DNA of 64,000 nucleotides, from positions 186,001-250,000 of the forward strand of contig BPQB01000040.1 in NCBI GenBank assembly GCA_019973155.2, given 5' to 3'. The notes below the pieces were generated by a model. It ran no database searches, was not told where the DNA came from, and was given only the letters and a program-made list of their open reading frames with translations. Shown in pieces: positions 11,366 through 16,017 of the stretch. This DNA comes from Phanerochaete sordida (taxonomy: Eukaryota > Basidiomycota > Agaricomycetes > Polyporales > Phanerochaetaceae). How positions within the stretch are numbered: position 1 is the stretch's first letter; each line of letters begins with the position of its first letter. A program made the translations under genes and the position numbers.

Positions 11366-11436
11366 GCATTAATGGGGTAGTGGTAACCTGGGTCGTTGCC
11401 ATCGACCCGCCGGGGGTTCGATTCCCCCTTAATGCA
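11366..11436 (+). tRNA. tRNA-Gly (anticodon GCC)
   Basis: A 71-nt cloverleaf without intron. Acceptor strands GCATTAA (11366-11372) and TTAATGC (11429-11435) pair fully, with discriminator A at 11436. The D arm carries GTAGTGGTAA. The anticodon stem GGGTCG/CGACCC closes the loop TTGCCAT, giving anticodon GCC. The T arm is GGGGG-TTCGATT-CCCCC. The internal Pol III A and B boxes (around TAGTGGTAA and GGTTCGATTCC) are present. Confidence 0.95.
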
Positions 11437-11468: not shown

Positions 11469-12686
11469 GATTCTTCATAGTACACACTGATAGTATCTAA
11501 GTAAGGGACCAAGTTTCTGTGTACTTTTTCTATGATAAATACACGGACACGGTTGTAAACGTGTAAGAACAGTTTATATACAGTAAACACACAATTTTCC
11601 CTATTTCCCGCTCTGAACATTGAACAGGCTCATATAAAGACTCGTAGAGGTCTCCTGCAGATGCTACAGTAGATCAGTCACCTGGCTAGTTAGGAGGTCC
11701 GTGCTAATGCAGATGTTGTTTGAAGCCGTCTACCAGCTGCCGAGCCAAGACCTAGCTCCTCCGGTGATAAGCGGCAGCAAGCTGCGCACTCTGCAGCACC
11801 CTGGGCTCAACTACTTGTCCGCACAGGACCACTCACAGCGCTGTCAACGCGGCCAGCAAGTGTTATACTCATACCGGCGACTCTCGGGATATGTGCGGTC
11901 GCGCACCGTCGCAATGGCGACAAAATGGCGATCGCGATCATACCGCGAACGGTGTGACCTCGGGAATGCGTGCCCCGCTACCAACGCATCCAAGCCGCCA
12001 CTTATATCGACTGAATGTCATACCAGAAGTGCGCTGTCCATGCTCTCGCCATAAGCTATGAGCCAAGGCACAAGGTAAGGCACCTTGAACTTAAATGCAA
12101 TTTCCGTCTCACGTACCTATCCGTCAACTCGTGCTCGAGGTCGCCTGCCCTTGGTTAAGCACATGCCAAGGGCTTGCGGGGCAGATGTCGAGGAGTCGTG
12201 TGTAACCTGCGGCGGCGCCATCGGCCAGATCGCGCCGACGCTGGCTTGCGCTGCTCACCACGCACAGCTTGTACACAGGCGCAAGATCTTGGCTTTCCCC
12301 AGGCTCGGCGGCACTCGAGGCGTGCGTGACGAGCCGCACACCGTGCGTGCAGAGTACCCAACTGGAATCTGTATTGACTGCCGTACAGCCGAGTTTTGTC
12401 GTCGGACGACAGGCTGTACGGCTGGTAGAACGCTTGCCTCGCCATTTCCAAAACGTTTGTAGGTTCTTTCGGCTTTAAACAGTTAATTTCCGGGAGAAAT
12501 GTAGATAGCCTCGCACTCACCCATGGTAGAGCTCGTCAAGACGCGCTTCGCGCACCACGCCCTCGAAACTAGCGTAGACGCCTGCGTCCGAGCTCAGGCT
12601 GCGGCGTAGCGGTCTGCAGATAGCGCAAAGTACCCTCTCTTTCATCTCTGTGCCTATTTGGCAGTTTCATGAGTCGGTCTTCCAAG
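11469..12686. other. AT-richer non-coding stretch between the two tRNA genes
   Basis: The first 200 bp are noticeably AT-rich compared with flanking genes and contain two isolated GTAAAC motifs (near 11553 and 11583). The rest holds only short, unrelated open frames. No gene can be supported. Confidence 0.4.
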
Positions 12687-12798
12687 GTAAACAAAGCTGA
12701 GGCGTGCAGGTGGGAACCGTTTGTTTACCGTGTAAAAACGTTTACCTCGTGTTTACCAGGTCTCCACTACACACACGTAAACGTAAACGGCAGTAAAC
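12687..12798. repeat. Cluster of GTAAAC / GTTTAC motifs
   Basis: Seven perfect copies of GTAAAC in 112 bp, on either strand: 12687 (GTAAACA), 12722 (TGTTTAC), 12739 (CGTTTAC), 12750 (TGTTTAC), 12777, 12783 and 12793. One-mismatch relatives lie at 12732 and 12810. Spacing is irregular, so this is a motif cluster rather than a satellite. The core equals the fungal forkhead-type recognition sequence GTAAACA. It sits just past the 3' end of the minus-strand tRNA-Gln, with no nearby protein gene. Confidence 0.6.
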
Positions 12799-12869
12799 GT
12801 TTATACACAGTAAATCACCAAAACGGTTGGAGCCTTACGTCCGAGTCTGCCTCAGGGGTGCAAAATGAA

Positions 12870-12965
12870 AGGCCTAGCTAGGAGTCGAACCTAGGTCTTG
12901 AGAACACATGGTTTTTACACCAGTGCCGTCAGAATCTCATGTGATAACCGTTACACTACAAGGCC
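12870..12965 (-). tRNA. tRNA-Gln (anticodon CUG) with 24-nt intron
   Basis: Minus-strand cloverleaf closely following the fungal tRNA-Gln pattern. The acceptor strand GGCCTTG (12965-12959) pairs with CTAGGCC (one T-T mismatch), discriminator T at 12870. The D arm is GTGTAACGGTTATCAC. The anticodon stem is TGAGA/TCTCA and the split loop is TTCTGA+T, giving anticodon CUG. The T arm is CTAGG-TTCGACT-CCTAG. A 24-nt intron (12928-12905) sits at the canonical position, one base 3' of the anticodon. A short T-run follows (AAAA on the plus strand, 12862-12865). Confidence 0.92.
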
Positions 12966-14186: not shown

Positions 14187-14689
14187 TGGTACGTCGGCAG
14201 GGATATTCGTATCTTACTCGGGCCATTTCTTACTCGCAGCTGCAGTTTTTATGTTGGCGTTCGAGCGTCGCATGATACCAGAATCGATTGCGGAGAACAT
14301 CAAGCTAGCAGCTATGGCTACGTGTACGACGTATAATTTATATATCACGCTCATCGATATCACGGCGATATGCAAGCACTCCGGCCGGCGGACCATGTGC
14401 GACGAGTCGTCCCGTTGCCTGCAGAGACAAGTCAGCGACGATATCTAGCAGAAGAGCAAAGAAATTAAGGCGCGTGTTGGTTTCCCTCCAGCGTCCCCAA
14501 GCTTGCATGCTGGAGGTACTTATCCCGAGGACTATGGAAGAGTCCGCGCCAGGACAGAGGCAAGGGCCCTCTGCCCTCCCTCGGGATGGGACTACGCACC
14601 GTGAATGGGGATAATCTTGATGCGTGCTTGAGGAACGTCGACGGTACCTGCAAAAGTTCGCTGACTATTGCACACGGGCCAACAGGTTG
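14187..14689. other. Non-coding stretch before the splice-donor array
   Basis: About 500 bp. It probably contains the 3' UTR of the small secreted protein gene and, on the minus strand, sequence downstream of the donor-site array. No gene is supported. Confidence 0.4.
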
Positions 14690-15312
14690 ACGTACCTTGC
14701 GTTTGACTGACATCCTCAAGACTCACCTTCACATCGTACGAAGACTTACCTGGAACAGAGACTCACCTTGAGACTGAATCATCGGGAGACTGGCTTACCT
14801 TGTGGGACATACCTTTCTCAGTTGCTACCCGTACTCACCTCATCTTGAACTAGACCTACCTGCGTGCTCCATAGCTGCGACCTACCTCGCACCTGACATT
14901 GATGAACGACTTACCTTGCCACGGACCTACCTCTGTAGAGACCTACCTTTGACACGATGTCTCCTGCCGACTCTCCTCACCTTGATGCGGACGTACCTTT
15001 CTCGAACCTTACCTCGGGACCGGGGCTTACCTTCGTTGAATCACTTACCTTGACACGACTCACCTTGCAATGACTTACCTTCCTTCAGCACGTACCTATC
15101 ATGGACTTGAGGACTCGGACTTACCTTGCCCCTTGCCTAGTGACGCACCTTCGACGTGACCTACCTTCCCCGAAGTCGCTTCATGGGACTCACCTGAGCG
15201 TGGGACTTACCTTTACATGGGACTTACCTAGTGCGGGACTTACCTCTACATGGGACTTACCTGCTATATAGCACTCACCTGAATAGGGACCTACCTTCGG
15301 CAGCACGTACCT
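14690..15312 (-). repeat. Degenerate 16-17 bp tandem array of 5'-splice-site-like units
   Basis: Plus strand carries 31 regular copies of a core AC-N-Y-ACCT (first base sometimes G or C), with ACCT starting at 14694, 14725, 14748, 14765 and so on up to 15277, 15293, 15309. Spacing is 14-18 bp, mostly 16-17, with occasional near-double steps of 21-34. The best-preserved part (15192-15312) has a consensus like GGGACTTACCTNNACAT. Read on the minus strand each core is AG|GTRNG(T): GTAAGT, GTGAGT, GTAGGT, GTACGT, GTATGT and GTGCGT all occur. AG, GT and the +5 G are kept in all 31; +3 is always a purine, +4 is free, +6 is T in 27. The roughly 8-nt spacers are largely unconserved. Unit length is not a multiple of three and no open frame spans it. 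On the plus strand the core equals the 5' end of U1 snRNA (ACUUACCU). Confidence 0.85.
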
Positions 15313-16017
15313 GAGCGATAGCGGGGAAGGTGGAGGAAAGAGAAGAAGAAGTATTGCGGAGGCTCACTCTCCGCACGGCGCCTTATACTAATAGCTTCAT
15401 GGCCCGAGAGCCAGCCTCTTGTCAGCCACTGCCCGCGGGCAAAGTCGATATCTCCTTCCTCAGCTTGTGCCGCCGCCGGCTGCATTATTATGGCAGCGGC
15501 GATTTCGGCATGTGGGCAATGATCGAGGACTACGTCGCTGTTAGCCACTCTGGGGGTGTGTGGCGGCGCTCGTCGCCACGACCGTGTCCGGCGCGAGGGC
15601 CTCGATCGATTTATACATGCCCTCACCCACCCGCAGAGTGTTTCTATAGTATACAAGACTCAGACGTTCGCTATCGGAGAAAGGAGGCTTGGTGCTATGG
15701 CAGTAGCTGTGTGAGGAAACGCGCCTGTCCGTCACGGAGTGCGTGTGGCGCAAGTCATCGTAGTTCGACGGTCACTGGCCACCAGCCAAAGCTCGATGGT
15801 TCACGTAAGGATGGAAAAGCAAGGTCCGAAATAACCGTCCCCGAACTAATTACAAAGGCTAAAAGCTACATGAAGGCATACATGGAATCTCGTTGCGTGC
15901 GGATATATCGTGCGATCTACAGTACGGATGTATGGATGCGACATCCTAATGTCAGGTATAAACGGTCTGGATGCGTAAAAGATCTCATGCAGATAAGAGA
16001 AGAGAAGATAGAGATAT
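15313..16017. other. Region upstream (minus strand) of the donor-site array
   Basis: About 700 bp between the array and the PL14 lyase stop. A plus-strand frame open from 15330 to 16067 (first ATG 15399) has no recognised domain and runs into the antisense of the lyase. A minus-strand frame (15656-15291) is also open but featureless. Neither is called as a gene. Confidence 0.4.
15609..15615 (-). promoter_or_regulatory. Possible minus-strand TATA box upstream of the array
   Basis: TATAAAT on the minus strand, about 300 bp before the first unit of the donor-site array in the direction that would transcribe it as AG|GTRAGT. Only the sequence match supports it. Confidence 0.25.

Follow-up and report, generated by a model that had tools for sequence, protein, structure and literature searches.

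The minus strand of positions 14690–15312 of the window (by which we mean the whole 64,000-nt stretch of Phanerochaete sordida DNA that was analysed) carries an array of 32 AGGTRNG cores that resemble 5′ splice sites. We judge it evenly balanced whether this array is a multiplied 5′ splice site within a noncoding RNA that ends in a ribozyme, acting as a platform for U1 binding. The results that bear on this are computed ones: the array itself, its strand bias, its uniqueness in the genome, the covarying fold of an RNA element behind it, the TATA boxes and splice signals that sister units of that element carry, and the stronger pairing of the array to U1. The features of the locus, in the order in which a minus-strand transcript would meet them, are as follows.

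15609–15615, minus strand: TATAAAT, an alternative and better-matching TATA box, 305 nt before the first array donor.
15382–15387, minus strand: TATAAG, a possible core promoter, with the first array donor (15310) following after 77 nt; weak, and could be due to chance.
14690–15312, minus strand: array of 32 AGGTRNG (5′ splice-site-like) cores in a single direction, from a pattern count.
14648–14695, minus strand: candidate 48-nt intron from the last array donor, GTACGT, to the acceptor TTTTGCAG, with a branch sequence off consensus (CGAAC).
14600–14647, minus strand: candidate short exon from acceptor 14648 to the donor GTGCGT; a short exon also in sister units.
14594–14599, minus strand: conserved 5′ splice site G/GTGCGT, 14 nt before the predicted cleavage point.
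14469–14585, minus strand: predicted HDV-like ribozyme of the fungal variant type, with predicted cleavage between 14586 and 14585.
14419–14599, minus strand: candidate 181-nt intron holding the ribozyme, with GTGCGT, CTGAC at 14435–14431 and CTGCAG ending at 14419.

A preliminary description of this DNA had reported a tandem array of donor-like sites on the minus strand, and this is confirmed: the first bases of the cores run from 15312 to 14697 on the minus strand, and the plus strand of the same interval has none. The remaining 63.4 kb of the window hold 39 minus-strand AGGTRNG sequences, with a chance expectation of about 0.4 per 623 bp. The array is therefore real, but the number of units is 32 and not the 31 originally given. 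The invariance that had been claimed for AG/GT and for the G at +5 does hold in all 32 cores, but it is partly circular because units were recognised by their core. The description was also right about position +3, which is always a purine (A in 23, G in 9), and about position +6, which is T in 27 of the 32. Position +4 is looser (A in 19, C and G in 6 each, T in 1), and C occupies +7 in 24 of 32. Column information amounts to 1.67–2.17 bits for AG/GT and +5, 1.0–1.3 bits for +3, +6 and +7, and 0.47 bits for +4, whereas the flanking columns from −6 to −4 and from +10 to +13 hold at most 0.1 bit, in keeping with the earlier remark that cores were kept while spacers drifted.

Cores follow one another at 14–18 bp in 19 of the 31 steps, with the other steps ranging from 7 to 34. 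By a hand estimate, 32 intact cores at about 16.5 bp each account for about 528 of the 623 bp, so few unit slots can be decayed. Tandem Repeats Finder reported the array only in pieces because of the drift in the spacers, and a recent duplication of 33–34 bp is visible inside the array at 15182–15263. As RNA, the array folds worse than its own shuffles (z +2.59), with 20 of 20 shuffles folding better. A protein-coding array was rejected, as units do not follow one another in multiples of three and none of ten ORFs next to sister elements matched Pfam.

The P. sordida genome (40.84 Mb in 222 contigs) was searched with a pair of cores at fixed spacing, with three cores, with two cores carrying C at +7, and with three GTRAGTC sequences. 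The window locus was the only such array found by these patterns. Array DNA matches only itself when compared with the genome, and we therefore rejected a genome-wide repeat as its identity. The search for like arrays, which the preliminary description had proposed, thus returned the window locus, one run of three cores and lone pairs. The run, at C5:265814–265855, consists of three AGGTRNGT cores in a row and, judged by eye, lies in an intron of an oppositely oriented gene, antisense to it. About 0.04 three-core runs are expected by chance across the whole genome (hand estimate), and this one, likely due to chance, was rejected as a second array. The lone core pairs with C at +7 are on contigs C9 and C38. 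In collections of viral and prokaryotic sequences, a 16-mer gave 20 matches, which is the chance level by hand estimate, and a three-part pattern gave no match. Among the papers listed by searches of the open-licence literature, none names a donor array or the ribozyme-bearing RNA family described below in Phanerochaete.

The array donors are distinct from the ordinary spliceosomal introns of this genome, both in donor profile and in downstream signals. For comparison, a finder combining splice-site and codon scores gave 32 introns in the window and none in a reversed-sequence control. These introns were required to carry GTRNG, so the comparison is valid for the other columns only. AG/GT is found in 32 of 32 array donors compared to 6 of 32 window introns. 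The preliminary description held that the donor types were those used by real introns of the window, a claim that fails at two positions: +4 is A in 19 of 32 array donors but in 5 of 32 introns, where C prevails (17; Fisher p 0.0006), and +7 is C in 24 of 32 array donors but in 10 of 32 introns (Fisher p 0.001).

Pairing with U1 was computed using what we take to be the sequence of the U1 5′ end. The mean duplex energy is −10.0 kcal/mol for the array and −4.95 kcal/mol for the window introns (32 each; Mann–Whitney p 4e-9), which upholds the suggestion that array cores pair with U1 and places them above real introns. First donors of sister units (13) average −6.0 kcal/mol, and GTRNG sites outside the array (1059) average −4.4 kcal/mol. 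The C at +7 has no partner in U1, and so is left without explanation by U1 pairing. A search for the U1 gene with RF00003 found no match in the P. sordida genome, nor in any control genome, and therefore carries no weight.

Downstream, 30 of the 32 array donors have no branch point and acceptor at 42–80 nt, even with a relaxed branch pattern. Only donors 14695 and 14726 have a relaxed branch and an acceptor within that range, and both share acceptor 14648. Introns in the window are 47–67 nt long. The branch sequence CTRAY does not occur in the array, compared to 1.7 in shuffles, a difference that is not significant alone. A purine precedes AG in 23 of 32 cores, making them poor as YAG acceptors; together with the lack of CTRAY in the array, this speaks against the recursive AG/GT sites that had been suggested.

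About 100 nt downstream of the array, on the same strand, lies a ribozyme-like RNA. That a minus-strand transcript is plausible, as first proposed, gains support from this position of the array upstream of a covarying RNA element whose sister units have TATA boxes and splice signals. A search with 14430–14700 found 22 places in the genome, the window included; their alignment shows a conserved RNA, about 115 nt long, that follows a 5′ splice site. A simple pattern for the element has 62 matches in the genome and 1 in a reversed control. Close comparison was made on 23 sequences, the window copy among them, with fold statistics taken on the 22 that are distinct. The structure was drawn from these same sequences, and related sequences can exceed their shuffles, so the slid control matters most: double-change cells number 46, whereas shuffles give 14.6 and slid versions no more than 13. 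Paired cells make up 95.6% of the total (89.5 in shuffles), and the covariation score is 0.260 (0.146 in shuffles). P2 is paired in 100% of cells, with compensatory change, and all helices are supported on the 22 distinct sequences.

The helices form a nested double pseudoknot, P1-P2-P3-P1′-P4-P2′, an order that we take to be that of HDV-like ribozymes. One covarying pair joins the P3 loop to the P1–P4 joint. By eye, the helices are intact in the window copy, both strands having changed in the inserted hairpin and in P3. Folded alone, it is better than its shuffles (z −2.71), yet the donor then pairs with the 3′ strand of P2. AGTA stands before P4 in 23 of 23 copies and GAAAC behind it; AGUA/GAA is presumably the mark of a loop E. 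P2 and P3 abut as drawn, and one sub-family has one base fewer there. In the available part of a report on fungal variants of HDV ribozymes, these are described as having C-G at the cleavage site, a P4 partly replaced by a loop E motif, and an extra nucleotide, mostly C, between P2 and P3, and a nested pseudoknot is named for HDV-like ribozymes (PMC5640933). The P. sordida element has in common with them the nested pseudoknot order, the C-G at the cleavage site (23/23 copies) and the loop-E signature AGUA/GAAA at P4 (23/23 copies) (PMC5640933). It differs in an extra hairpin between P1 and P2 and in a 5′ splice site directly upstream, neither of which is mentioned for fungal HDV variants in the part of PMC5640933 available to us; the word Phanerochaete is absent from the main text of that report.

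From its sequence, the element looks like a predicted HDV-like self-cleaving ribozyme of the fungal variant type. Membership of the HDV class was doubted at first, as P1 has no 5′ G, but the fungal variants typically have C-G there (PMC5640933). Rfam returned two tRNAs only for the window at gathering score, with no match to the element, and ten loci searched at E ≤5 gave two weak matches, both outside the element. An omega RNA of Fanzor/TnpB was rejected, as PF07282 has 0 matches in P. sordida compared to 6 of 14 control genomes, a search by which diverged Fanzors could be missed.

In the window (14465–14600, minus strand) the donor GGTGCGT can pair at 7 of 7 positions with ACGCGCC at the 3′ end of the ribozyme, as an alternative to P2. 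Masking of the 5′ splice site by the ribozyme 3′ strand is possible, as is a switch between such masking and ribozyme folding. Across copies, 147 of 154 pairs between the donor and the 3′ strand can form, and the pairing is preferred in the single-sequence fold; against this, one-sided changes go uncompensated, whereas the P2 core keeps 110 of 110 pairs.

Sister units share an architecture. TATAAATA lies 443–1011 nt upstream of the element in 18 of 21 sister loci, and the first donor follows it after 79–118 nt in 13 of 17 sister units. These first donors read GTRAGT in 13 of the 17 units, with A at +4 in 13/13 and C at +7 in 7/13, and at these two positions they resemble the array, unlike the window introns. 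None of the 13 has AG before GT. At the other end, GGTGSGT precedes the ribozyme in all 23 copies. Its distance from the predicted cleavage point is 8 nt in 17, 6 nt in 4, 14 nt in the window copy and 18 nt in one L049 copy, so that it falls within 6–8 nt in 21 of 23. A branch sequence and acceptor stand before this ribozyme-side donor in 20 of 23 rows, or 18 of 21 distinct copies since two are listed twice; upstream sequence is missing for one copy, and the pattern did not catch the window copy. A downstream branch and acceptor behind the ribozyme was found in 1 of the 23 rows compared. Among the sister units examined none has an array, and the sense strand of 17 of them shows no enrichment in GTRNGT (27 sites in 11.7 kb, compared to 26 on the opposite strand), so the U1 theme of the family rests on its 3′ donor alone.

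On this basis, we propose that the array would be the body of a noncoding transcription unit on the minus strand, presumably transcribed, although the evidence for a promoter of the window copy is weak. The unit would belong to a dispersed P. sordida family ending in an HDV-like ribozyme just behind a 5′ splice site, and the array would have arisen by multiplication of the first 5′ splice site of the unit. Its copies keep the bases that pair with U1, and because 30 of the 32 lack an acceptor within range, binding of U1 snRNP would not lead to productive splicing. The transcript would then offer 32 open U1 sites and at most one short terminal intron. Its 3′ end would be made by the ribozyme instead of polyadenylation, and cleavage as predicted would leave an RNA ending at +6 to +8 of a 5′ splice site, which is the U1-pairing stretch. 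Bound U1 may keep the RNA in the nucleus or on chromatin, and may guard it from premature 3′ processing. We consider retention and self-protection more likely than titration of U1, since a single locus is unlikely to titrate it. Rather more doubtful is the full proposal, which we put forward tentatively, of an RNA family with a ribozyme-made 3′ end 6–8 nt past a 5′ splice site as a U1-binding tail, in which one member multiplied its site to 32 and became a largely unspliced U1 sponge or chromatin tether. Against a U1 platform stand the C at +7 (24/32) with no U1 partner, the sister first donors without AG before GT (0/13), and the atypical window copy, whose ribozyme-side donor reads CG/GT, not AG/GT, and is 14 nt from the cleavage point where 6–8 is usual.

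U1-dependent retention of noncoding RNAs on chromatin was reportedly described by Yin et al. in 2020. The available part of a more recent report states that in plants and, by its citation, in animals, noncoding RNAs are retained on chromatin by U1 (PMC12354759). The proposal for P. sordida is alike in that a noncoding RNA would be held via U1 on 5′ splice-site-like sequence, and different in having an array, on a predicted RNA, where the part of PMC12354759 available to us describes none. In papillomaviruses, the 5′ splice sites of the HPV16 late regulatory element and the BPV1 inhibitory element recruit U1 or a U1-like complex and, without being spliced, repress late expression, according to the available text of PMC2635527. 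The likeness lies in 5′ splice sites that serve U1 without splicing, which for P. sordida is presumed; the difference is that HPV16 has four weak sites and BPV1 one, in a viral 3′ region, whereas the P. sordida locus is fungal, has 32 strong sites and is known from sequence alone (PMC2635527). If the proposal is true, this would be a natural RNA whose 5′ splice sites far outnumber the cluster of four described for HPV16 (PMC2635527), and splicing-independent roles of U1 could be tested in a culturable fungus. The pairing of an HDV-type ribozyme with a 5′ splice site at a near-fixed distance (6–8 nt in 21/23) was not found among the papers listed by the searches of the open-licence literature, and such a family would make both ribozyme-made RNA 3′ ends and a connection with U1 directly testable.

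Other explanations of the array are less favoured. It is unlikely that the array is a cluster of sites for a DNA-binding protein (GACNYACCT on the plus strand), serving as an enhancer, silencer or roadblock. A nine-base core with a graded edge (AGGTRNGTC, with the +7 C in 24/32) does have the look of a protein motif, its +7 C is no help to U1 pairing, and its spacing is fairly regular, but all 32 cores point the same way, the whole genome has one array, and the motif is the 5′ splice-site consensus in sense to an RNA unit that bears splice signals; moreover, C at +7 is common in sister first donors too (7/13). We give an equally small share of probability to a functionless expansion of one donor by slippage, in which cores look constrained through short templated copying that left out the flanks, or because the array is partly young. 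The recent 33–34 bp duplication at 15182–15263, the single locus, and the C at +7 and +8, which could be remains of a founder unit, all fit such an expansion. However, plain slippage would copy flanks too. All 32 units retain seven intact core columns, yet the spacers beyond the recent duplication have almost reached saturation.

Two further readings involve the spliceosome itself. In Cryptococcus, RNA interference draws on introns that splice poorly, whereas the donors in P. sordida are isolated. Stalled spliceosomes trigger siRNA there (available text of PMC6643885), and the array RNA would share the unproductive splice signals (PMC6643885), its acceptor-less donors (30 of 32 with no acceptor in range) stalling spliceosomes and feeding small RNAs against the locus or family. 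Piwi-domain matches occur on six contigs of the P. sordida genome, but selection would not keep a self-defeating signal unless the host gains, and we regard this reading, which the preliminary description had also raised, as improbable. Least probable of all is that the donors are alternative 5′ splice sites competing for acceptor 14648 to set exon length: the last donor and this acceptor do form a 48-nt intron, within the 47–67 nt range of the window, but the acceptor is over 80 nt away for 30 of the 32 donors, and its branch sequence departs from the consensus.

Some observations concern the wider family and the surroundings of the locus. In L050 (contig C45), at −650 to −250 in its orientation, and in related units there are repeated hairpin-like segments of their own, e.g. 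GGCGTGACCGCTGCCCC ... GTATCCCCACCGG twice, and other family members may also have multiplied an internal motif. Ribozyme elements are often paired, the two facing outward at a distance of 1.8 to 30 kb and having similar P4 stems; such pairs occur, for instance, on C1, C14, C16 (twice), C20, C45, C53, C126 and C161. This arrangement suggests either divergent gene pairs or larger elements bounded by a ribozyme element at each end, and the ribozyme units may belong to larger elements that are mobile or duplicated. Whether the pairs are terminal inverted repeats of a transposon is left open: many are found among the 62 copies, but no target duplication was seen by eye in five of them and tandem copies also occur. 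Between two ribozyme units, at C45:177700–181850 (L088), lie open frames of retroelement type, suggestive of zinc knuckles, a reverse transcriptase and a tyrosine recombinase. Judged by eye, this retroelement is DIRS-like, with Pfam confirming the zinc knuckles only. We read it as a nested insertion between an outward-facing ribozyme pair because only two of the nine contigs with its relatives also hold a ribozyme element. The array itself is set in a gene-poor interval between two tRNA genes and a polysaccharide lyase gene. Nearby, a separate multicopy element of about 1.3 kb occupies 11512–12837, with copies 66–86% identical on other contigs; a tRNA-Gly gene at 11366–11436 adjoins it, and another tRNA lies at 12870–12965 on the minus strand.
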